Assembly (NCBI GenBank): GCA_945863605.1
Contig: CAMAZP010000004.1
Location: 62,001 to 126,000 of the forward strand
Source: Chitinophaga pinensis
Lineage (GTDB): Bacteria; Bacteroidota; Bacteroidia; Flavobacteriales_D; Crocinitomicaceae
Length of the DNA: 64,000 bases
Direction of reading: 5' to 3'
In this document: positions 240-37,704 of the stretch, one piece after another
How the letters are laid out: each line of letters opens with the position of its first letter
Position numbering within the stretch: position 1 is the stretch's first letter
Notes under the pieces: generated by a model
Told to the model about the DNA's origin: nothing
The model's input: only the letters and a program-made list of their open reading frames with translations
The model's database searches: none
Translations under genes and position numbers: made by a program

Positions 240-3182
240 ATGAAGTATTTTAAGTTTATTTTACCAACGCTTATAATAGTTTTTGTTTCTAACTTCATTT
301 TGACACAAACAAGCAGTGTTCAAGGAACTGTTAAAGATAGGAGGGGTGTTATACCAAGTGCAAAAGTTATTATTCAAAATACCGAATTCAAAACGATTTG
401 TGATTTTGATGGAAAGTTCTATTTCAAAGGAATGAATGCTGGTACTTACACGTTAACGATTGACCTTACAGGTTACACTATTTTCGAAAAATCATTTAGT
501 TTAAGTAAGGACGAAAATCTAAATTTAGGAGATTTATTTCTAAAAGAGATTCAAGAATTAAATGAAGTTACTGTTACAACTTATGCTAAAACAAGCGAGA
601 ACAAAGCACTTTATTTAGTCAAAAATTCTCCAACAGTTGTAACAGTCGTTTCTTCTGACATCATTGCTAAACTTCCAAATAGAAATGCATCTGATGTTGT
701 AGCGCGAGTTCCGGGAGCATCAATAACAAGAAACAAAGGAGAAGGAAGTAATATTTCATTGCGCGGTACTCCCTTGGATTGGACAGCGACTTTTTTGAAT
801 GGCGACCGTTTGCCTGTTGCAGATGAAGAAAATGCAACGCGTTCGTTTGAGTTTGAAATTCTTCCTGCGGACATGATAGAATATGTATTCGTTTCAAAAA
901 GCTCAACTCCAGACATGGAATCCGATCAAATCGGCGGAAGTATTAATTTCCTAGCAAGAAATACAGTCCAAGAAAAAACTTTCAAACTGAATGTTGCTGG
1001 TGGTTATAATTTATTGGCAAATAAACCTACAGGTGTTTTTAATTTTTTAGTCGGAAATGTTTCTAAAAACAAGAAATTGAGCTACTTATTAAATGGTTCT
1101 GCTTTTGCTCGCTATTACTCTGCTGATGCTTTCAAAATCATTTATGGTAGTAATTTTAATCATAGTTTAAATCGCTATGAGTTAAAAAAATACGATGGAA
1201 CACGCACCAATATTTCAGCAAACACAGCTATTCAATATAAATTCAGCGATAAGTTCAAAATCGGAACCCACTTTTTGTACAGCTTCATGTTGGATGATAA
1301 ATACCAAAAAAAACAAAGCTACAACTGGTACGAAGGATCAGGACAAAGAATCCGTTTACAAAATATTCATGGGAAATTAGAACGTCAACTTTTTGGTGGC
1401 GACATTTATTCTGAATGGAACATTAACCCTTCGCTGAAATGGTTTTTCAAAGTTGCGAGTTATGATAATAGTTTTCGCTACGGTAAAGTTCCTTTCAACC
1501 AAAGAGACCCGCGAAATGGTTATATGATTACAGAATTCATCAGTCCTTTAATGCAGTTTGAAGACCAATCTTACGTTAGTTTGTATGGCGATCAAATCGA
1601 TATCAACGACCCAAATGGATTTCCAGGGAAGTTAATTGGTCCTGATGACCCGTATGGAAATGGTGACGATCCAAACAATATTCAGCCACAGTATTCAACC
1701 ATTTTTGGAGCACAAACTTTAAATGCAAGTGACTTTGAATTTTATCAAACCTACACAGAAATAAACGAAACAAGAGAACGTGATTTGCCTGTAATTCAAA
1801 CAGATTTGGATTATAAACTAAACAATAACTTGAAGTTTAAATTCGGCTCAAAAGCACGTATAAAAAGTGGTTATCGCAATATTTCAAAATACGAATGGTT
1901 TAAAGATTATTCGATTCCAGGAAATAATCAACCTTTTACCTTAGATCAATTTCCACATGATCCATACACTGATAATAGAAATGGATTTCTTGCGCCATTA
2001 GGTTCAAATTACGATGGACAATTTTATCCCTTTTTAGACCCAAGTATTTTGTCATCTTTCTTGATTGATTCCTCTTATTTGATGCGTGAAAAGGAAATGA
2101 ATTATTTGAATCAAGAATATAGACAATGGGTGGGTTCAACATATAGTTACAAAGAATTACAATCTGGAACGTATGCAATGGCTGATTACTCCACAGGAAA
2201 ATGGAGTTTTGTGGGTGGAGCTCGTTTAGAATACACTCGATTTAACCAAGTTTCAGATACCTTGACAGATGAGCTTGCATTTGATACTTTATCTGGAAAT
2301 CAGTACAATGTTCCGAAAAGTATTGAAGTGGAAAGAGATTATTTATTCTTATTGCCCTCAGTAAATGCAACTTATCGAATGACTGATAACATAAATATTC
2401 GTGCGGCTTTTAGTGAATCGATGAAAAGACCAAATTTTGAGCAAACGAAACCAGGATTTGCGATGATAAAATACAACGACCTTGTTTACATTTTTGGAAA
2501 TCCAAATTTGAAACCAACCTACGCTTTTAATTACGATTTAGCTTTTGAATATTTCTGGCCCGGAAAAGGAATGTTTTCAGTAGTTGGTTTTTACAAAGAT
2601 GTTTACAATCATATTTTTACAGTGACAACTGCCGATGTTGACCCAGCCTCAGGAATTTTGGTGAAAAAATATGAAAATGCTTCCAATTCAACGGTTTATG
2701 GCGCAGAAGTGACTTTGATACGAAAATTTGATTTCCTACCCGGCTTTTTAAGTGGCTTAGGAACCAATTCCAACATCACCATTTCTGACTCAAGAATGGA
2801 AATTCCGGGAAGACCAAACAAACAAAAAATGACAGAACAAACGCCATTGATTTATAACTTAGGATTGGTTTATGAATATAAAAAATGGAACGCACGTTTG
2901 GCTTTAAATTATATAGGTAAACATTTAAAAGAAGTGAATCTTGCATCATTAGTTGGAATAGGTCTTTTGCATACCGACGATGATTTTGACACCTATGTGA
3001 ATGAAACTTACAATTTAGATTTTCAGATTTCTTATTCGTGGAACAAAAAAGGAAGTGTTTATTTTGAAGGAATGAATCTATTAAATGCTGCCGAACGAAG
3101 ATATATTGGTAAAGAATGGCGCCATTTGCGAATGGAATATTATGGGCCACGTTTTCAATTAGGCTTACGTTTGGATATATGA
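240..3182 (+). CDS. TonB-dependent outer-membrane receptor (first of tandem pair)
   Basis: This 980-residue protein starts with a signal peptide (about residues 1-24). A carboxypeptidase-regulatory-like beta-sandwich follows (about 28-110, 'GTVKDRRGVIPSAKVIIQN'). Next is a plug domain with 'LPNRNASDVVARVPGASI' and 'GTPLDWTATFLNGDRLPVA', and then a long 22-strand-type barrel. The 'DMESDQIGGSINF' stretch matches the TonB receptor subgroup whose plugs carry a D-[ML]-[DE]-x-D-x-IGG motif. Such receptors import a bound ligand across the outer membrane using TonB energy. No SusD-like partner is adjacent, so this is not a classical polysaccharide locus. The gene sits between an aminophosphonate-type oxidase and a second receptor, which suggests uptake of a small organic phosphorus compound. 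That substrate is inference. Confidence 0.9.
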   Translation: MKYFKFILPTLIIVFVSNFILTQTSSVQGTVKDRRGVIPSAKVIIQNTEFKTICDFDGKFYFKGMNAGTYTLTIDLTGYTIFEKSFSLSKDENLNLGDLFLKEIQELNEVTVTTYAKTSENKALYLVKNSPTVVTVVSSDIIAKLPNRNASDVVARVPGASITRNKGEGSNISLRGTPLDWTATFLNGDRLPVADEENATRSFEFEILPADMIEYVFVSKSSTPDMESDQIGGSINFLARNTVQEKTFKLNVAGGYNLLANKPTGVFNFLVGNVSKNKKLSYLLNGSAFARYYSADAFKIIYGSNFNHSLNRYELKKYDGTRTNISANTAIQYKFSDKFKIGTHFLYSFMLDDKYQKKQSYNWYEGSGQRIRLQNIHGKLERQLFGGDIYSEWNINPSLKWFFKVASYDNSFRYGKVPFNQRDPRNGYMITEFISPLMQFEDQSYVSLYGDQIDINDPNGFPGKLIGPDDPYGNGDDPNNIQPQYSTIFGAQTLNASDFEFYQTYTEINETRERDLPVIQTDLDYKLNNNLKFKFGSKARIKSGYRNISKYEWFKDYSIPGNNQPFTLDQFPHDPYTDNRNGFLAPLGSNYDGQFYPFLDPSILSSFLIDSSYLMREKEMNYLNQEYRQWVGSTYSYKELQSGTYAMADYSTGKWSFVGGARLEYTRFNQVSDTLTDELAFDTLSGNQYNVPKSIEVERDYLFLLPSVNATYRMTDNINIRAAFSESMKRPNFEQTKPGFAMIKYNDLVYIFGNPNLKPTYAFNYDLAFEYFWPGKGMFSVVGFYKDVYNHIFTVTTADVDPASGILVKKYENASNSTVYGAEVTLIRKFDFLPGFLSGLGTNSNITISDSRMEIPGRPNKQKMTEQTPLIYNLGLVYEYKKWNARLALNYIGKHLKEVNLASLVGIGLLHTDDDFDTYVNETYNLDFQISYSWNKKGSVYFEGMNLLNAAERRYIGKEWRHLRMEYYGPRFQLGLRLDI

Positions 3183-6082
3183 AGCTAATTCTGAGTTTAT
3201 TGTTAATGGTAAGTTGCTTTCCATTTTTTGGACAAACAAGTTATTCATTTAAAGGACTTGTAAAAGATTCTTTAGTAGTTGAAAATGTGCAATTTAAACT
3301 CATTGAATTAAATAAAAAAACACAATCAAATTCCATTGGATTTTTTCAATTTGATAGTTTAGCTGCTGGAAATTATACCGTTGTATGTTTTCATCCTAGT
3401 TTTGAACAAGATTCCTTCACTATTCAAATTCCGCAATTGATTGTTCCAGAAATTATCAATTTAAGAACTTCGAAATCTTTAAGTTTCAATACTGTAACTG
3501 TTTCAAAAACAAGAAGAAAAAAAACTTCTTTTGAGAAAATGCAAAAAAGCACGAGTATTGTAAACAATGTCAAGAAAAGTGAAATTGACCATCTTCCAAC
3601 CAAAAACGCAGCTGATTTAGCACAACGATTACCAAGTGTGAGTTTGTTTCGCTCTAAAGGTGAAAGCAATATGGTTTCAATGCGTGGAACTCCTGTTGAT
3701 TGGACATCGGTATTGGTCAATGGTGACCGATTGCCTGTTGCTTGCGAAGACAATCCAACACGCTCATTTGAATTTGAAGCCTTTCCTTCTGTTTTCGTAG
3801 ATGAAGTGATTGAAGCCAAAGGAATTACGCCCGATTTAGAATCTGATAATATCGGTGGTGCTTTAAATTTCTTATTTCCTGAATTTTCAGATAGTTCCTC
3901 AACGCAATTAGAACTCGCAATTGGACAAAATTTCTATGCAAAATTACCTTATGGAAATATGAATTTTAGCCATTCTAATACCTCCAAAAATAAGAAATTC
4001 AGCTATTTGATTTCAGGAACTTACTTCGGAAGAACGTACGCAACACAAGCTAGAAAAACAATTTTTGGAAATAATTTTAACCATGGCATCAATCGTTTAG
4101 AACTAAGGAATTATCATGGATTTAGAGGTACAGCGGGCGTTCATGCTGCAATTGCTTATAAACCAACTTCCAAATTAACATTTACGCTTCGTTCGTTTGG
4201 TGGACAAATGATTGACGATAAAAACATGGACAAAATTTCCTTTAATTGGTATGAAGACAATTTGAGAAGGGTGCGACTTCAAAATGCAAAGGGTAAATTG
4301 GTTCGACAGATTTATGGCTTGACTTTCCAAACGGATGTGAAAATTAATCAGAAAATCAACACCTTTATTCGACTTTCTACTTACAAGAATGAATTCAAAC
4401 CTCGGAATTTTCCCTACAAAGGAGATGACGCTCGTAACGGTTTTGTATTCTTAGATTTTATGAGTCCAGAAGTAAATTTCTCAGACTATGAGCAAACTGA
4501 TTTTTATGGTCAAGCAATCGATCCAAATGCCACAGACTTCAGTTTAATAAAGTTGATTGGAAACGATAATCCATATGGAAATGGGGGAGACCCAGCTGCA
4601 ATTGTTCCAAATTTCACCGACCAGTTAAGTCCTTCTGATTTTGAATTTACGCAAGCATACAGTGAAATAAATCGTATCTCAGAAACAGATCCAATTGTAT
4701 TTCAAAATGATTGGGAAGTCAAATTTAACGACAAATGGCTTTTCAATGCAGGACTAAAATATCGATACAAATCAGGAAGTAGGTTGATTTCAAAACATAA
4801 TTGGTTTAAAGATTACAGCGGTGGAAACTCAGAACCAATTTTGATGAGTGATTTTTCTTTGAAACCATTTATGGATAATGGTTCGTTTTTTCAAAACGTA
4901 AATGGGGATTTGTATTCAAATTTCAATTATTCGATTTTAGATAAAGAATCCGTTTCTACCTTTTTTAGCGAAAACGGTCAACAATTACGTGAAGTACCAA
5001 TGAATACTTCCAATTTCGAGTACAATCAATGGGTAGGCGCTTCTTACTCGTACAAAGAACATCAAAGTTCAGGTTTTGCAATGTTAACCTACTCTGGAAA
5101 AAAGTTCGATTTCTTAACAGGTTTGCGAATTGAACATACTTATTTGATTGAAACATCAGATACGTTGACCAACGAATTAGCACTTGATACGCTAACAAAT
5201 ACGTATTACAATGTGCCAAAATCAATTACTATTTTCAGACCTTACATTGGATTTTTGCCTTCTTTTCACATTAATTGGTATGTAAGTAAGAAAACGAATT
5301 TAAAGTTCGGAATTAGCAGAACAATGCATCGACCAAACTTTGAAGAAACGAAACCTGGACAAGCTGTAATTAAATACAATGAACTTGACTTTACGTTTGG
5401 AAATCCCAATTTGAAACCAGTTTTTTCCATAAATTTGGATGTAGATGGTGAATTTTACTTTTCAGAAACCAGTGTTTTAACTGTTGGAGCCTATTTCAAA
5501 CAAATTTCAAATCATATTTATACCCTTTCAAAACCAAATGTCGATCCAATTTCCGGAGCTACAATGCGTTATTTTGCGAATGCATCCGATTCTTGGGTTG
5601 GAGGATTGGAATTGTTTTATGCTCAAAAATTTGGCTGGATTCATACTTCATTAAAAGATGTTGGAATCCGATTAAATGCCTCTTTTAGCGATTCGCGTAT
5701 GCAAATTGAAGGTCGTCCTGAAAATCAAAAAATGACTAAACAAGTACCATTTTTAGGAGCAATTGAGTTGTTTTATGAAAATGATAAGTTTGAATTACAC
5801 ACCAATCTGAGCTACACTTCTCGCTATTTGAATGAATTAAATTTGGTTTATTTAAACGGTGAATTATTACACAAAGATGATGATTTTGATGTATACACGA
5901 ATGATTTTATCAACTTGGAAGCATCGTGTTTAGTACAGTTCTCGAGTAAAATAAAAATGAAAGCTGAACTTGGAAATATTCTAAATTACAGTGAATCAAA
6001 ATCACGTGGGAAAGAATGGAGAAAGCTCAATCAAGAGTATTTTGGAATTAGAGGTGAGATTGGAATTATAGTATCGCTTTAA
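3179..6082 (+). CDS. TonB-dependent outer-membrane receptor (second of tandem pair)
   Basis: I place the start at 3179. The reading frame stays open back to 3116, but the ATG at 3179 overlaps the preceding stop as ATGA and begins a clear signal peptide (MKLILSLLLMVSCFPFFGQ). The product is 967 residues with the same layout as its neighbour: a regulatory beta-sandwich (about 22-95), a plug with 'LPTKNAADLAQRLPSVSLF' and 'GTPVDWTSVLVNGDRLPVA', 'DLESDNIGGALNF', then the barrel. Barrel segments such as 'GNPNLKP' and 'FNWYE' recur in both, so the two are diverged tandem duplicates. The 4-base overlap implies translational coupling. Two receptors may give different ligand ranges or act as a heteromeric pair; the sequence cannot decide. 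Confidence 0.9.
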   Translation: MKLILSLLLMVSCFPFFGQTSYSFKGLVKDSLVVENVQFKLIELNKKTQSNSIGFFQFDSLAAGNYTVVCFHPSFEQDSFTIQIPQLIVPEIINLRTSKSLSFNTVTVSKTRRKKTSFEKMQKSTSIVNNVKKSEIDHLPTKNAADLAQRLPSVSLFRSKGESNMVSMRGTPVDWTSVLVNGDRLPVACEDNPTRSFEFEAFPSVFVDEVIEAKGITPDLESDNIGGALNFLFPEFSDSSSTQLELAIGQNFYAKLPYGNMNFSHSNTSKNKKFSYLISGTYFGRTYATQARKTIFGNNFNHGINRLELRNYHGFRGTAGVHAAIAYKPTSKLTFTLRSFGGQMIDDKNMDKISFNWYEDNLRRVRLQNAKGKLVRQIYGLTFQTDVKINQKINTFIRLSTYKNEFKPRNFPYKGDDARNGFVFLDFMSPEVNFSDYEQTDFYGQAIDPNATDFSLIKLIGNDNPYGNGGDPAAIVPNFTDQLSPSDFEFTQAYSEINRISETDPIVFQNDWEVKFNDKWLFNAGLKYRYKSGSRLISKHNWFKDYSGGNSEPILMSDFSLKPFMDNGSFFQNVNGDLYSNFNYSILDKESVSTFFSENGQQLREVPMNTSNFEYNQWVGASYSYKEHQSSGFAMLTYSGKKFDFLTGLRIEHTYLIETSDTLTNELALDTLTNTYYNVPKSITIFRPYIGFLPSFHINWYVSKKTNLKFGISRTMHRPNFEETKPGQAVIKYNELDFTFGNPNLKPVFSINLDVDGEFYFSETSVLTVGAYFKQISNHIYTLSKPNVDPISGATMRYFANASDSWVGGLELFYAQKFGWIHTSLKDVGIRLNASFSDSRMQIEGRPENQKMTKQVPFLGAIELFYENDKFELHTNLSYTSRYLNELNLVYLNGELLHKDDDFDVYTNDFINLEASCLVQFSSKIKMKAELGNILNYSESKSRGKEWRKLNQEYFGIRGEIGIIVSL

Positions 6083-6128: not shown

Positions 6129-6156
6129 TTCACAAATATTTGACATTCAGTTAACA
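6129..6156 (+). promoter_or_regulatory. Pho-box-like array of three 11-bp-phased TTNACA repeats
   Basis: Three hexamers lie in one orientation: TTCACA at 6129, TTGACA at 6140 and TTAACA at 6151. Each starts exactly 11 bp after the last. This matches the known geometry of PhoB/PhoP-type response-regulator sites (TT[A/T/C]ACA with 11-bp period in Bacillus PhoP). The array ends 20 bp before a TAnnTTTG promoter element that drives an operon with two phosphatase genes. Control by phosphate starvation is inference, but pattern and context agree. Confidence 0.6.
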
Positions 6157-6173
6157 ATATTAATAATTGTTAA
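6151..6173. promoter_or_regulatory. Interrupted palindrome in the phosphatase-operon promoter
   Basis: TTAACAAT (6151-6158) is repeated as its exact reverse complement ATTGTTAA (6166-6173) around a 7-bp A/T centre. It shares its left arm with the third TTNACA hexamer and lies 3 bp before the -7 element, a typical operator position. It may be a separate repressor site or the fourth, inverted half-site of the Pho-like array. Confidence 0.4.
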
Positions 6174-6176
6174 AAG

Positions 6177-6184
6177 TAGATTTG
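6177..6184 (+). promoter_or_regulatory. Bacteroidota -7 promoter element for the LamG-phosphatase operon
   Basis: TAGATTTG matches the Bacteroidota -7 consensus TAnnTTTG in every fixed position and lies 22 bases before the ATG at 6207. I see no good -33 TTTG at the usual distance, which fits a promoter that depends on an activator bound just upstream. Confidence 0.55.
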
Positions 6185-6206
6185 TAATCGATGTTAAAAA
6201 TTAAGT

Positions 6207-8201
6207 ATGAAAAGCATTTTTTCTTTTTATTTTCTATTTTTTGTAGTTTCTTTATTTGCTCAAAATAATATTGGATCTGGAAATTGTATAGATTTTTCTG
6301 CAAATATCACAAATACTAATCATATAAATTTAGGTGGTCTTACTTGGCTTAATGATAACGATTTTACCGTTGAATGCTGGATGAAAGTGAATTCTGTTTT
6401 TGATGACGAAGCATTTTTTAGTAATAAAAATTGGGCAAGTGGAAATAATACGGGAATTGTGTTTGATGTACAAGATAATGGAGCTAACATGAAATTTAAC
6501 TTCAAGGACAATACAAACCCAAGAAAAGATTTAACAGTTGCTGTCGATGTTTTAAATCGAGATTGGTTTCATTTTGCAGGTACTTTTAAAAGAGGTGGTT
6601 ATTTTGTAGTTTACATAAATGGATTCCCTTTAGATAGTCTAGATGTTTCATCTTTTAATGCCTCTTTCGCAAGTCAATATACTTATAAACTTGGTCAAGA
6701 CGGAACAGGTAACTATACTTATAATGGAGCTAATCCAAGATTTGATGGAAAAATTGATGAATTAAGAATTTGGTCAGAAGTTAGAACAAAGCAAGAAATA
6801 AGAGACAATATGTGTCATTCCCTTCAAGGAAATGAAGCTGCTCTTTACGCTTACTATAATTTAAACGAACAAAGTGGTTTTTTAATTGATGATTTATCAA
6901 GTAATAATAATGATGCAAATATTGTAAATGGTATTCCTACAAATCTTGTTGTTTCTGGTGCTCCAATTGGAAATACATCAGTTAATAAATATGGATCTAC
7001 TTTAACAAGTGAAACCTTACAGTTAATCTCATCAAATTCAGGAACATTGACGATTAATAATTTTAACGGTATTACTGGTATTCATCTCTATCAAGTTGAT
7101 AATCAACCAAGTTTGACCATTGGCTTGAATAATTTATCAGGTAATGCTACTTATTTTGGAGCTTTTATATGTGATAATAGTGCAACAGTATCTTATACTA
7201 TTAAATACGATTACTCTAATTTTTCAAATGCAGTATCAGATGAAAATAATTTAATTCTTTTCAATCGATTTAAAAACGATTATTCACCTTGGACGAATAG
7301 TTTATCAATTCAAAATACTTCAGCAAATTATTTTTCAAATCCGAATATTATTTCAAGAAAAGAATGGATATTAGGAACCTCAACTGGTTTAAATTGTCAG
7401 AGTATTGACTCAATTTTTGTCGTTAGTGGAACACCAACTTCAGCTTCTATTGGTTGGAACAGCAACGCCACTAATTGGAATATTATTTGGGGTGTTCAGG
7501 GATTTGATATCAATCAGGGAACAGCAATAAATAATACCACTTCCAATCCATTTGATTTTACAAATCTTGCATCTGGAGTAGTTTACGAAATGTATGTTCA
7601 AGATACGTGTGCTGGTGTTGGTTCTGGTTTATGGATGGGACCATTTTCGTTTACAGCACAGCAATGTCAAAGTCCTACACAATTAAACGCTATTGAAATT
7701 TCCTCTAATTCAGCTAAATTAACTTGGACAAATAATGTTTCAAGCTCAAATCTTTTCTCAATTGAATGGGGATTAACTGGTTTTCCTCAAGGTGTTGGTA
7801 TTCCTGTAAATAATGCACAATTACCACATGTTCTAAGTGGATTATCACCAGCAACTACTTACGATTATTATGTGAAAACTATTTGTGGTCAAAATAGCTC
7901 AAGTGCTTGGGCTGGACCTTACACGTTCACTACTTTAAGTAATGTTGGTTTTGAAGAGAATGAGATCGTTGCGACTATTGCTCCAAATCCTTTTAGAGAC
8001 GAATTTATATTGACTTATCCTAACATCAGCAATGAGGAAATTCAAATTTTAGATTTAATTGGTAGAAATGTTTCTTTTTCAACTAGTTATTTGAATGAAA
8101 ATCAAGTTAAGATAAAAGTTGAAAATGCTAGAAATCAAGTTTTTTTATTGAAATTAAATAGTATTTCTACTTCAAAAACATTAAAAATTACAAATAAATA
8201 A
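6207..8201 (+). CDS. Secreted LamG/FN3 protein with T9SS sorting domain
   Basis: The 664-residue product has a signal peptide ending near residue 19 (…SLFAQ). A LamG/concanavalin-A-like domain follows (about 30-230; 'FTVECWMKVN', 'WFHFAGTFKRGGYFVVYING', 'KIDELRIWSEVRTKQEI'). Two fibronectin-type-III-like modules come next (about 400-480 and 492-580), each with paired cysteines. The C-terminal 75 residues have the 'APNPFRDEF' pattern of a type A T9SS sorting signal, so the protein should be exported and anchored on the cell surface. It is the first gene of an operon with two T9SS-targeted phosphatases. A role in binding a polymer or substrate near those enzymes is plausible but not shown. No catalytic motif is visible. 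Confidence 0.8.
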   Translation: MKSIFSFYFLFFVVSLFAQNNIGSGNCIDFSANITNTNHINLGGLTWLNDNDFTVECWMKVNSVFDDEAFFSNKNWASGNNTGIVFDVQDNGANMKFNFKDNTNPRKDLTVAVDVLNRDWFHFAGTFKRGGYFVVYINGFPLDSLDVSSFNASFASQYTYKLGQDGTGNYTYNGANPRFDGKIDELRIWSEVRTKQEIRDNMCHSLQGNEAALYAYYNLNEQSGFLIDDLSSNNNDANIVNGIPTNLVVSGAPIGNTSVNKYGSTLTSETLQLISSNSGTLTINNFNGITGIHLYQVDNQPSLTIGLNNLSGNATYFGAFICDNSATVSYTIKYDYSNFSNAVSDENNLILFNRFKNDYSPWTNSLSIQNTSANYFSNPNIISRKEWILGTSTGLNCQSIDSIFVVSGTPTSASIGWNSNATNWNIIWGVQGFDINQGTAINNTTSNPFDFTNLASGVVYEMYVQDTCAGVGSGLWMGPFSFTAQQCQSPTQLNAIEISSNSAKLTWTNNVSSSNLFSIEWGLTGFPQGVGIPVNNAQLPHVLSGLSPATTYDYYVKTICGQNSSSAWAGPYTFTTLSNVGFEENEIVATIAPNPFRDEFILTYPNISNEEIQILDLIGRNVSFSTSYLNENQVKIKVENARNQVFLLKLNSISTSKTLKITNK

Positions 8202-8234: not shown

Positions 8235-9461
8235 ATGAAAAAAATTGTATCAATCGGATTTTTGTTTTTTATCACAAGTCTTTGGGCATCTCAACCAAGA
8301 AAAGTATTAATCATTGGAATTGACGGTCTTAGAACGGATGCATTACAACAAGCAAACACTCCAAATTTAGATGCATTGATTGCTTCTGGTTTTTATACAT
8401 ATGAATCATGGCATGAGGGAATTACTGTATCTGGACCATCTTGGTCAACTATTATGTGTGGAGTTGAATTTCCAAAACATGGTGTAACAAGTAATTCTTA
8501 TTCTGGAAGTAATTACAATAATTATCCTTATTTTACTAAAAGAGCAAAAGAATGTTTACCGGATTTGTATCAAGTTCAAATAGTTCAATGGGCTCCAATG
8601 AGTGATAATGTTTATAATGATGCATGGGATCAAAAAATTAAAGTATGTGATGGTTGCGGTGCAAACAGTGTTTCAGCAGCACAAACTCAACTTCAAAATG
8701 CAAATTTAGATGTTATGTTTGTTTACTTTGATGAGTGTGATTTAACTGGACATTCAACTGGATTTAGTCCATTAAACCCAGCATATATCAATGCAATTCA
8801 AACAGTTGATGGTCATGTTGGGTCTATAATGAATGCTTTACAAAGTCGCCCTAACTACGCTCAAGAAGATTGGATTGTTTTAATTACTACGGACCATGGA
8901 GGTATTGGAACTGGTCATGGTGGAAACACATCAACTGAGAGAAAAATTTGGTGGATTGGAAGTGGAAATTATCCTGTTGCGAACCAACTAACTGGTGTTT
9001 CTGACCCGGGAAGCTATGCAATGGGAAATCATAATGATGTAACTGCACTTGGAAATCCTTCACAAGCAGATATCGCAGTTACAGCATTAGATCATTTGTT
9101 TAGAGGTACGGAATGTGACCCTTTTAATCCAATATGGGATTTGGATGGTCAGTCTTGGTTAGATTCGTTGCATGTAGAAGCTCCAGTTGGTATTTCTGAG
9201 AATAAACCGAAGGAAATTTCGATTAAATTATTCCCAAATCCTACGACAGATTTTCTTTCTGTTTGGTTTGAAAATGAAAAGAATGAAACAATTATTCCTT
9301 TAATTTACGACCAATTAGGTAATCAAGTAATGGACTTCAAGTTTACAAATGTAAATCTTAATAAGTTAAACATTGATATTAACAAGCTTGCAAAGGGTGC
9401 TTATTATTTAACTGTAAATATTGGTGGGAATAACATAACTCGATTATTTACTGTTGAATAA
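8235..9461 (+). CDS. Secreted type I phosphodiesterase / alkaline-phosphatase-superfamily enzyme
   Basis: This 408-residue enzyme has a signal peptide (about 1-19), then the nucleotide pyrophosphatase/phosphodiesterase fold. Visible metal and catalytic residues are D30 ('IIGIDG'), the probable nucleophile T72 in 'GPSWSTIMCG', D169 and H173 in 'DECDLTGHSTG', D220-H221 in 'TTDHGG', and H228. The family hydrolyses phosphodiesters or phosphomonoesters using two zinc ions. The last 80 residues ('LFPNPTTDFLSVWFEN') form a T9SS sorting domain, so the enzyme acts outside the cell, probably anchored. It overlaps the next phosphatase by one base (TAATG), indicating coupled expression. The exact substrate (nucleotides, sugar phosphates or phospholipid head groups) cannot be read from sequence. 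Confidence 0.85.
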   Translation: MKKIVSIGFLFFITSLWASQPRKVLIIGIDGLRTDALQQANTPNLDALIASGFYTYESWHEGITVSGPSWSTIMCGVEFPKHGVTSNSYSGSNYNNYPYFTKRAKECLPDLYQVQIVQWAPMSDNVYNDAWDQKIKVCDGCGANSVSAAQTQLQNANLDVMFVYFDECDLTGHSTGFSPLNPAYINAIQTVDGHVGSIMNALQSRPNYAQEDWIVLITTDHGGIGTGHGGNTSTERKIWWIGSGNYPVANQLTGVSDPGSYAMGNHNDVTALGNPSQADIAVTALDHLFRGTECDPFNPIWDLDGQSWLDSLHVEAPVGISENKPKEISIKLFPNPTTDFLSVWFENEKNETIIPLIYDQLGNQVMDFKFTNVNLNKLNIDINKLAKGAYYLTVNIGGNNITRLFTVE

Positions 9462-11248
9462 TGTTTATGAGACTATCGCAATTTTTTGTTTTATTTCTCT
9501 GCTCATTTATTGCTAAATCTCAAACATTTCCTGAAAATATTAACTTAGATTTAGCACATTTTCCGTTTACATATGGTGTAACTTCTGGTGACCCAACAAT
9601 TGATAGAGTTATCATTTGGACAAGAATTGAGTCGAATCAATCGGAATCTGTTACTTGGCAAATGAGTAAGGACAGTTTATTTTCAACCATTGATCAAATA
9701 GGAACTTTCCTCACTGATAGTCAACGAGATTGGACCGTGAAAGTTGATGTGGAAAATTTGGAAGCTCAAACTAATTACTACTATCGTTTTATTTCGGAAA
9801 CAGGTGAATTTTCTGATGTTGGACATGCTAAAACGGCTCCAATAGCTGATTACGATCATAGTCGTCTTGCAATTATGTCGTGCAGTAGTATTTATTCTGG
9901 ATTTTTCAATGCCTATCAACGAATTGCAGAACGAAAAGATTTAGATTTAATCATTCATGTTGGTGATTATATCTATGATTTTGTTGACGCTGATGAAGAA
10001 GTTAGAGTACCAGATCCATATCCAATTGATCCAATAACTTTGGGAGAATGGAGAGAGAGACATCGTTATTATTTAATGGATCCAAATTTAAGGGCTGCTC
10101 GAAAAGCACATCCATGGATTGTTTTATGGGATAATCACGACGTTGATGGGCAGCCTGGAAATGAATTTGCACCAATTCAAGCTTTTATGGAGTATATACC
10201 TGTTAGATTGCCAAATCCAAACGATTCTTCATTGATTTACAGGAAAATTGAATATGGTTCTTTGATGGATATTTTTGTAACTGATGTGTTATTATACAAA
10301 GGGCAAGATACCCTGGTTGATGGATCATTCAGTATGATAGGTAACGCTCAATACGATTGGTTGACACAAAATTTGAGTACTTCTGATGCAAAATGGAAAT
10401 TATTTCCTATGCAAAATCTAATGGCTGGGTGGAGTATTCAAAACATTCCATCTTTCGTTGGAATTGGGCAAAATGGTGTTTTGGACCCATCTAATTGGGA
10501 TGGCTACGATGGTGATCGTGACCGACTTCTGAATTACATTTCCTCCAATAATATTGATAATGTAGTAGTTTTAAGTGGAGATTCTCATGTTTCAATCGTT
10601 GCAGATTTATCAATTAATCCACAAAATAACTCAGTTTATAATTCACAAACTGGACAAGGAAGTGTTGCTGTAGAATTTTTGCCAACTAGTATTACAAGAG
10701 GTAATTTTGATGAAATGGGTTTTGGTTGGGCGATAGGAATTGTAACTCCAATAATGGAAGCTGAAAATCCAAATCATATTTTTATGAATTTGATTGATCA
10801 CGGGTATGGTTTATTAGATGTTAAACAAGATTCTTGTGTGGCTGAATTATGGTATTCTGAAATATTAAATGCTTCAAATACTGAAGATTTTGAAAGGGGT
10901 TATGTTGTTAAAGATGGTGAAAATCACTGGAAAAGAAATTATACTACTGAACCTACACCACCAAAATCAGATGAAATAGTTGCGATTAACCAAAGCGAAA
11001 AGTTCGATTTTAAACTTTATCCAAATCCTGCAAAAAAAATAATCGAAATCGAAAATAATACGAATCAAAAAATTAAATCAGTTAATTTAATTTCACCTGA
11101 TGGTAAGGAAAGTAAATCACTAAAATTGAATAATGAAACTTCAAACATTCAAAAATATTCAATAATGGAATTTGTGAAAGGAATATATACGTTGAAAATT
11201 GAGACTAATAAAGAAGTTTACCTTTCTAAACTAGTCATAATCGAATAA
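9461..11248 (+). CDS. phoD: PhoD-like alkaline phosphatase with T9SS sorting domain
   Basis: The 595-residue product has a signal peptide (…FIAKSQ, about residue 21). A PhoD N-terminal beta domain follows ('FTYGVTSGDPTIDRVIIWTRI'). The metallophosphatase core has 'LAIMSCSSIYSGFFNAYQRI', 'LIIHVGDYIYDF', 'WIVLWDNHDVDG' and 'VVLSGDSHVS'. The Cys in the SCSS segment corresponds to the iron-ligating Cys of PhoD enzymes. The C-terminal 'FKLYPNPAKKIIEIEN' region is a T9SS sorting signal. PhoD enzymes release phosphate from mono- and diesters and are classic phosphate-starvation proteins. Translation begins within the stop codon of the upstream phosphodiesterase. A second ATG two codons in (9467) is an equally possible start. 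Confidence 0.88.
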   Translation: MFMRLSQFFVLFLCSFIAKSQTFPENINLDLAHFPFTYGVTSGDPTIDRVIIWTRIESNQSESVTWQMSKDSLFSTIDQIGTFLTDSQRDWTVKVDVENLEAQTNYYYRFISETGEFSDVGHAKTAPIADYDHSRLAIMSCSSIYSGFFNAYQRIAERKDLDLIIHVGDYIYDFVDADEEVRVPDPYPIDPITLGEWRERHRYYLMDPNLRAARKAHPWIVLWDNHDVDGQPGNEFAPIQAFMEYIPVRLPNPNDSSLIYRKIEYGSLMDIFVTDVLLYKGQDTLVDGSFSMIGNAQYDWLTQNLSTSDAKWKLFPMQNLMAGWSIQNIPSFVGIGQNGVLDPSNWDGYDGDRDRLLNYISSNNIDNVVVLSGDSHVSIVADLSINPQNNSVYNSQTGQGSVAVEFLPTSITRGNFDEMGFGWAIGIVTPIMEAENPNHIFMNLIDHGYGLLDVKQDSCVAELWYSEILNASNTEDFERGYVVKDGENHWKRNYTTEPTPPKSDEIVAINQSEKFDFKLYPNPAKKIIEIENNTNQKIKSVNLISPDGKESKSLKLNNETSNIQKYSIMEFVKGIYTLKIETNKEVYLSKLVIIE

Positions 11249-36774: not shown

Positions 36775-37704
36775 TTAAGCTTTAAGTTTTCGAAATCGTT
36801 CTTCAAATTGCTTTTTCTGTTTTCGTTTTAACTCCGATAAATCTTGAGGTACTTTTCTTTTCCATCTTTTATGAGACCAAAGCCATTGAGAAGGATTTTT
36901 GATGATTTCTTCCTCTAATAATTTGGTGTGAATTTCTGTAATTTCTCCCCAATTCATTGATGTCGCAGCTTTGGTTATTAACTTTAATTCAATTTCGTAA
37001 TATCCTCTTTTTATTTTATGAACAACGAAAAATACAACAGCAAAGTTGTAATCATTTGCCATGTGTTCAGTCCCAAAAAGTACTGCTGTATCTTGATTTA
37101 AAAAATTCATCCAATAGCTTTTAGTGGAATGTGCTGGTGACTGATCTCCTAAAGTTAAAACGGAAAATGGCATCTTTTTAAATGTTCTAAATTTAATTTG
37201 ATAGTTGGAGGCATTTATTACTTGCATTCCAAAGCGTTCTCGACGTTGATTTACTTTTTTATCCCAAAATTTATTACTCATTGGCATACCAATCCCGAAG
37301 GCTTGATGATTGAAAAGAAAATTTTGTGAGCTTATGAGCCATTCCCAATTATTAAAATGACCAGAAACAAGGATTACATTTCTTTTTTCGTCATAAAGTT
37401 CTTGCATTAAAGCTGGATTTCGAACCAACATTCTTTTATTAAGTTGTTTTTTTGAGATGCTTAAATTCTTTATTCCTTCAACTAAAATGTCTGTAAAATG
37501 TCTGTAAAATTGCTTCAATAATTGTTGTTGTTCTAGTTCACTTTTATCTGGAAAGGAGCGTTGTATGTTTCCAATAATTACTGATTTTCTGTATGGAAAA
37601 ATACGAGTAAAAATAAAATATAAAAGATCACTAAGCTTGTATAACAACCCCAATGGTAAAAATGAAATTGGGAAGACAATAAGGTAATAAAGTAGTGCAC
37701 TCAT
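36775..37704 (-). CDS. LpxL/HtrB-like lipid A acyltransferase
   Basis: A 309-residue protein with an N-terminal membrane segment ('YLIVFPISFLPLGLLYKL'), 'IIGNIQRSFPDKSELE' and the H-x4-E catalytic motif in 'LVSGHFNNWEWLISSQ'. 'GDQSPAHSTKSYWMNFLNQDTAVLFGTEHMAN' corresponds to the acceptor region of the family. It probably adds a secondary acyl chain to lipid A, using acyl-ACP at the inner membrane. Its ATG follows the rarA stop with no gap. Confidence 0.88.
   Translation of the reverse strand: MSALLYYLIVFPISFLPLGLLYKLSDLLYFIFTRIFPYRKSVIIGNIQRSFPDKSELEQQQLLKQFYRHFTDILVEGIKNLSISKKQLNKRMLVRNPALMQELYDEKRNVILVSGHFNNWEWLISSQNFLFNHQAFGIGMPMSNKFWDKKVNQRRERFGMQVINASNYQIKFRTFKKMPFSVLTLGDQSPAHSTKSYWMNFLNQDTAVLFGTEHMANDYNFAVVFFVVHKIKRGYYEIELKLITKAATSMNWGEITEIHTKLLEEEIIKNPSQWLWSHKRWKRKVPQDLSELKRKQKKQFEERFRKLKA

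Follow-up and report, generated by a model that had tools for sequence, protein, structure and literature searches.

Direct repeats with an 11-bp period are read by PhoB-family proteins in Escherichia coli, in cyanobacteria and in Bacillus subtilis, whose PhoP box consists of TT(A/C/T)ACA repeats 4-6 bp apart. The Pho box bound by E. coli PhoB has two 11-nt units with a CTGTCAT core (PMC4415409, PMC1906773), and the cyanobacterial SphR box, which precedes pstS, phoA and nucH, comprises three CTTAACCT repeats separated by 3-bp linkers (PMC1906773). In Bacteroidota, the phosphate regulon has so far been described from expression (PMC8115612) and from PhoB deletion and EMSA in Bacteroides fragilis (PMC3547664). 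PhoB of B. fragilis binds a 512-bp fragment of the pstC promoter and is required for pstC expression, and the main text of that report does not contain the words “consensus”, “motif”, “repeat”, “TTAACA” or “footprint” (PMC3547664). The regulon of Flavobacterium johnsoniae, in which TonB receptors, lipoproteins, phosphatases and phoB are phosphate-induced, rests on expression data, the main text being without “Pho box”, “promoter” and “binding site” (PMC8115612). In marine bacteria, PhoB sites were placed bioinformatically before the phosphorus-starvation genes of plcP clusters, with Bacteroidetes named among the plcP carriers (PMC4796936). The first-pass annotation of the DNA analyzed here had called Pho boxes poorly described in Bacteroidota, and no operator consensus for the phylum was found in the open-access literature searched.

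Organization of the site and its neighbourhood

The window, a stretch of 64,000 nucleotides from Chitinophaga pinensis, contains three TTNACA hexamers followed by a -7 promoter element and a three-gene operon. TTCACA, TTGACA, TTAACA and TAnnTTTG start at 6129, 6140, 6151 and 6177, exactly where the first-pass annotation had placed them. The features are as follows:

240..3182, + strand: TonB-dependent receptor (PF00593, PF13715, PF07715) of the phosphonate / organic-phosphorus block
3116..6082, + strand: TonB-dependent receptor (PF14905, PF07715) immediately 5' of the site; coordinates are those of the listed ORF, whose true start may lie further 3'
6129..6134, + strand: predicted Pho-box repeat 1, TTCACA, read directly, 5/5 specified bases
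6140..6145, + strand: predicted Pho-box repeat 2, TTGACA, read directly, exactly 11 bp from repeat 1
6151..6156, + strand: predicted Pho-box repeat 3, TTAACA, read directly, exactly 11 bp from repeat 2
6157..6176, + strand: spacer of 20 nt between box and -7 element, a length that, with 9, stands out in the motif-blind pstS promoters
6177..6184, + strand: -7 promoter element TAGATTTG, read directly, TAnnTTTG with 0 mismatches
6207..8201, + strand: first operon gene, a secreted protein of 664 aa with domain matches to Laminin_G_3, fn3 and Por_Secre_tail
8235..9461, + strand: type I phosphodiesterase / nucleotide pyrophosphatase (PF01663, E 4e-21) with a type IX secretion tail (PF18962, E 1.5e-11)
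9461..11248, + strand: PhoD-like alkaline phosphatase (PF09423, E 1.7e-64) with a type IX secretion tail

The hexamers share their form and about their period with the PhoP box of B. subtilis but differ from it in sigma factor and promoter context, and the 9- or 20-nt phase to TAnnTTTG was seen only in the sites found here. Similar to the SphR box, they are direct repeats with a TTAAC core and an 11-bp period, often three in number; unlike the SphR repeats, whose positions relative to the gene vary widely, those of the window end in ACA and are locked to a TAnnTTTG -7 element (PMC1906773). As in E. coli, 11-nt direct repeats lie at a fixed distance 5' of the core promoter element (10 bp from the -10 in E. 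coli, PMC1906773), whereas the core is TTAACA instead of CTGTCAT, the units number three against at least two, and TAnnTTTG stands in place of the -10.

The site matches 21 of the 21 specified bases of TTNACA x3 (11 bp)-N20-TANNTTTG. It presents what marks a Pho box, namely at least two direct repeat units with an 11-bp period (hexamers at 6129, 6140 and 6151), a repeat core of known type (TTAACA-like), a fixed distance to a core promoter element (20 nt to TAGATTTG), phosphate genes downstream in its own genome and in relatives, though most PhoD promoters are without a box, and a genome-encoded PhoB-type regulator with a conserved DNA-reading helix. A constitutive Bacteroidota promoter has a -33 element TTTG. 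Here, TTTG is absent about 20 nt 5' of the -7 element, and repeat 3, TTAACA, sits where the -33 element would be. The other constitutive feature, the -7 TAnnTTTG known as the Bacteroides consensus (PMC4747536), is present at 6177-6184, and the first ATG at 6207 follows 23 nt past its last base.

The operon genes are separated by 33 bp and then overlap by 1 bp. Domain matches bear out the two phosphatases assigned to the operon in the first pass, namely the PF01663 phosphodiesterase and the PF09423 PhoD. For the first gene, a search of five other genomes yielded no full-length match, and the closest PhoD orthologue (82%, genome G033) is interrupted by a contig end. The genes on the 5' side have the look of a block for phosphonates and organic phosphorus, whose final gene is the TonB receptor at 3116..6082. 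Just 5' of the window, contig C4:56000-63000 (L336) encodes a phosphonoacetaldehyde hydrolase/phosphonatase (TIGR01422) and an FAD oxidoreductase (TIGR03364), both above cut-off, a PhnX-like hydrolase (TIGR03351) below cut-off and a PF01663 phosphodiesterase; then come the two TonB receptors (240-3182 and 3116-6082) and the site. This phosphodiesterase is preceded by a weak box at L336:1199 (15/21, spacer 20). The genes of the window belong to the same functional classes as the phosphate regulon of F. johnsoniae (PMC8115612). Three features point to Bacteroidota as the source phylum: the type IX secretion tails, the TAnnTTTG promoter and the comparisons with Flavobacterium.

The exact-phase triple had been judged improbable by chance, and the calculation agrees. 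A first-order Markov model of the window predicts 0.0017 perfect triples per window and 0.08 per genome, and for the triple plus N20 and TANNTTTG only 6.6e-5 per genome; the perfect triple (0 mismatches) is a single copy both in the window and in the whole genome of 3,092,134 bases. Triples with one mismatch occur five times in the genome, all within ORFs, against 0 for the reversed control. The loose triple with at most two mismatches is not unusual, because 2 were found in the window versus 1.07 expected from shuffles. Apart from the triple, the only TTNACA pair of the window with its hexamers 11 bp apart is a repeated TTTACAGACAT unit at 37481-37508 on the - strand.

Recurrence of the phased repeats in relatives

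Upstream regions of pstS-family genes were gathered by protein family and not by motif, and 7 periods with 25 spacers each (175 combinations) were scanned, the score being the matches out of 21 specified bases (TTNACA x3 plus TANNTTTG). Period 11 with spacer 9 or 20 gave the two best of the 175 combinations both in the set from the window's own order (14 loci, E < 1e-30) and in a phylum sample (28 of 30 loci, L316 and L326 being dropped with no ORF found). This phylum sample is uneven, with 14/28 loci from family f29 and 8/28 from f35, and f35 carries most of its signal. Among 20 further pstS loci, hand-picked from the pstS listing for spread over families, spacer 20 ranked 1 and spacer 9 ranked 2 of 175, with 5/20 loci, from f58 and f35, scoring at least 16.

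The signal depends on base composition. At GC < 0.45, a restriction chosen after the pooled result for 62 regions was known, 20/30 pstS regions score at least 16 at either spacer versus 7/92 cleaned controls (Fisher p 3e-10), and the other 32 pooled regions, with GC of at least 0.45, show no clear box. The phased hexamers expected by the first-pass annotation before pstS of relatives hold for AT-rich genomes and fail in GC-rich ones, all 14 loci of the GC-rich family f29 scoring below 15. No box was seen at 16 weaker phosphate-binding-protein matches (L073-L088). The first control set of 208 upstream regions, in which spacer 9 ranked 1 and spacer 20 ranked 4, was contaminated by PhoBR-locus genes, which mainly make up its high scorers; in the cleaned 92 regions that replaced it, the two combinations rank 81 and 22 of 175, respectively. 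Because spacers 9 and 20 are one repeat unit apart, the array is phase-locked to the -7 element and may begin one unit earlier or later.

The composite TTAACA x3 (11 bp)-N20-TANNTTTG was then searched with at most three mismatches in 245 genomes of the window's order with completeness of at least 90%, giving 54 sites in 45 genomes compared to 12 for the reversed pattern. The 54 include the site of the window and one more in its own genome, and only two fall within an ORF of at least 130 aa. A downstream ORF lies in reach of 47 sites, that of the window included, and in 30 of these 47 the listed start is 10-35 nt from the -7 box (median 20, window 23). Clear phosphate genes follow 21 of the 46 other sites: polyphosphate kinase (7), Na/Pi cotransporter (5), PhoB-type regulator (4), phosphate-selective porin Porin_O_P (3), PstS (1) and PhoD (1, G203). 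Seven more precede TonB receptors, one of them an N-terminal fragment, and 18 precede genes without an evident phosphate link. The four PhoB-type regulators are 59-67% identical to the PhoB of the window's genome; a fifth at 30% was left out of the count. These counts are not independent, because 6/7 polyphosphate kinases come from one genus; grouping by gene family and genus leaves 15 separate phosphate cases.

The polyphosphate kinase genes of that genus (g24, in the window's family; L263, L264, L265, L267, L268 and L269) share a conserved composite box, a sequence pattern which suggests that polyphosphate synthesis in g24 may be under phosphate control.

The strict TNACA x3 by itself is not enriched (16 sites in 12 genomes versus 14 for the control), and 8 of the 16 sites are one orthologous promoter. 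The earlier proposal that hexamer form and 11-bp period match a Pho site needs correction in this respect: what carries the signal is the 11-bp period combined with a -7 box at a set distance of either 9 or 20 nt, with a consensus nearer TTAACA.

PhoD promoters behave differently from what the first pass had anticipated. Twenty-seven PhoD loci were collected, of which one is the window's own, inside the operon, and one has no upstream DNA. Among the remaining 25, the phased hexamers are mostly absent, with 4/25 scoring at least 16, near the control rate; the PhoD of G203 is an additional composite site. Two of the four (L019 and L020) score 16 and 17 with spacer 20 and are alike, and the other two (L022 and L015) score 16 with spacer 9, L015 having a poor -7 box. 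The PhoD paralogues of the window's genome, L031 and L037, reach best scores of 13 and 14. Within the window's genus, the PhoD genes L019, L020 and L022 have a related promoter block of TTGACA and a -7-like box (16-17/21).

For TonB receptors the expectation was borne out, in 7/46 composite sites as given above and in all of ten Flavobacterium-type genomes. The latter are close relatives of F. johnsoniae, nine of them named Flavobacterium; F. johnsoniae is not among the 80 loci listed. Their PhoBR locus, recognized by eye from Porin_O_P matches and translations, has the order glycosyltransferase-like gene, OprP, kinase, response regulator, TonB receptor and lipoprotein. The promoter alignment revealed ATAACA-N5-(G/C/A)TAACA-N5-TT(C/T)AC(A/G) ahead of the PhoBR-adjacent TonB receptor in 10/10 genomes (spacer 9, score 17-18 of 21), and a box precedes the FII lipoprotein in 7/10 (spacer 20, score 16-18) and OprP in 9/10 (spacer 9, score 17). 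By synteny, the TonB receptor and the FII lipoprotein correspond to Fjoh_0545 and Fjoh_0546, for which the F. johnsoniae study gives fold changes (FC) of 8.0 and 9.9 upon phosphate depletion (PMC8115612, Table 1; log2 by the usage of its text), together with 3.1 for Fjoh_0544 (PhoB). A box need not mean induction, however: OprP has one in 9/10 genomes, yet Fjoh_0542 (OprP) is not induced (FC -1.3, FDR 0.25; PMC8115612), which counts against a simple rule.

The TonB-receptor/phytase operon of F. johnsoniae is phosphate-induced as well (PMC8115612), and its promoter in ten Flavobacterium-type genomes (L185-L194) shows no clear triple. These ten promoters conserve a palindrome-like block around ATAACACTATGTTAATTT with inverted TAACA/TGTTA, unlike the direct repeats elsewhere. 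PhoX gave matches in 5/16 Flavobacterium-type genomes, too few for footprinting.

Candidate regulators and alternative readings

The genome of the window encodes five OmpR-type DNA-binding domains. Two of these proteins, L007 and L008, are 56% and 57% identical to Flavobacterium PhoB and share a recognition-helix motif, whereas L009-L011 differ in their recognition helices. L007 is adjoined by a PhoR-like kinase that is 45% identical to its Flavobacterium counterpart. The best two NCBIfam matches are PhoB models, below their cut-offs (205 versus 270 and 198 versus 296 bits). The DNA-reading helix is nearly identical to that of Flavobacterium PhoB and close to that of E. coli PhoB, to which it is homologous; the stretch ERTIDVHIRKLREKL aligns with DRTVDVHIRRLRKAL of the E. 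coli protein. PhoU (PF01895) and PstS of the ptsS_2 family (TIGR02136), two components of the classical Pst-PhoU-PhoR-PhoB system, have no match in this 99.98% complete genome, so the classical phosphate sensor appears absent.

A box scan of the own genome covered 857,773 of 3,092,134 bases, a non-random portion in which three stretches (the window, L304 and L337) were already of interest. Sites scoring at least 18 at period 11 and spacer 20 number four in this 858 kb, the top count among all 175 combinations (mean 0.38), and one of the four lies within an ORF. A 17/21 box at C2:137181-137236 heads a row of TonB receptor, FII-like protein, phoB and phoR, all on one strand (C2:129669-137236, L364), which resembles the Flavobacterium PhoBR locus. 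The TonB receptor has 965 aa as listed, with a likely ATG 13 nt past the -7 box, and the FII-like protein of 867 aa shares 36% identity with a Flavobacterium FII across 297 residues. Ahead of the FII-like gene is a gap of roughly 230 bp in which no strong box is present (best 14). We infer that the four genes would be read as one transcript, and the row may constitute an autoregulated unit of outer-membrane and two-component functions. On C6, a 17/21 box with spacer 9 at position 64947 (L304:948) precedes the gene of a PF01663 (PafA-like) phosphatase; the orphan PhoB-like gene L008 is some 3 kb away, with no kinase seen in the 3.2 kb around it. The remaining own-genome sites (C12, C40 and C2:84004) precede proteins without known function.

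Since the pattern recurs before phosphate-uptake genes of many relatives, it is very probable that the regulator of phosphate starvation binds at this site. The best-surviving alternative is that another OmpR/PhoB-family protein, the orphan L008 on C6 or an RprY-like regulator, binds the repeats and the operon answers a different signal. The five OmpR-type domains leave room for it, and L008 equals L007 both in its similarity to Flavobacterium PhoB and in its recognition-helix motif; but elsewhere the box is often followed by phosphate genes, including phoB-like ones, the genome's own phoB-phoR lies behind a box, and the helices of L009-L011 differ, so that we regard this alternative as improbable.

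Very unlikely, in our estimate, is an ordinary constitutive promoter, formed by TTGACA at 6140 and AATAAT 16 nt later or by the -7 box alone, with the other hexamers coincidental in AT-rich DNA. TTGACA-N16-AATAAT does match 11/12 sigma-70 positions, and TTNACA-like words arise easily in intergenic DNA that is rich in AT, loose matches being common. However, the stretch has five sigma-70-like sites where its shuffles give 3.3, which is unremarkable, whereas the full composite has the very low genomic expectation given above and its identical phase recurs in independent pstS promoters. The weakest alternative, a nucleoid-protein site or AT-rich upstream element that many strong promoters share and that is not specific to phosphate, could draw on the top ranks of the uncleaned control (1st and 4th) and on the 18/46 composite sites without an evident phosphate link, but is hardly credible given that those control high scorers are mainly PhoBR-locus genes, that the cleaned control drops both combinations far down and that 21/46 downstream genes are clear phosphate genes.

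Proposed mechanism and implications

Altogether, the site at 6129-6184 is very probably a Pho box bound by PhoB in a Bacteroidota-type promoter, where it would replace the -33 element and switch on the three-gene operon, a reading drawn from sequence comparison. When phosphate is scarce, PhoB, most likely the product of C2:130736-131425, which adjoins its kinase gene, would be phosphorylated and bind the three 11-bp direct repeats head to tail. By analogy to E. coli PhoB, the promoter-proximal unit may contact RNA polymerase at the place of the missing -33 element. The polymerase would then read TAGATTTG and start transcription near 6190, leaving a short leader before the ATG at 6207, and the output would be the LamG/fn3 protein, the phosphodiesterase and the PhoD phosphatase, all with type IX secretion tails. 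Binding, polymerase contact and induction at low phosphate are proposed here from homology with E. coli PhoB.

We further propose, tentatively and as a doubtful extension, a phosphate regulon free of Pst and PhoU. PhoB would read TTAACA-type repeats whose distance to the -7 element is fixed at 9 or 20 nt. A box of this kind would drive phoB-phoR, with the genes for a TonB receptor and an FII-like beta-helix protein first in the row, so that uptake at the outer membrane and sensing might form one autoregulated unit. The signal could then come from the outer-membrane module or from a Na/Pi transporter, and not from Pst-PhoU.

Among the described systems, that of B. fragilis likewise involves a Bacteroidota PhoB, which there binds a pst promoter as a 512-bp fragment (PMC3547664), and in the plcP clusters PhoB sites are likewise predicted before phosphorus-starvation genes (PMC4796936). 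Repeats of the TTAACA type at a locked distance of 9 or 20 nt from TAnnTTTG were not found described in the open-access literature searched. In the root zone of plants, Bacteroidota play a prominent part in recycling organic phosphorus (PMC8115612). Given a consensus and its fixed promoter phase, the regulon could be predicted in AT-rich genomes and metagenome bins, footprinting would gain direct targets, and phosphate sensing without Pst and PhoU would become testable.
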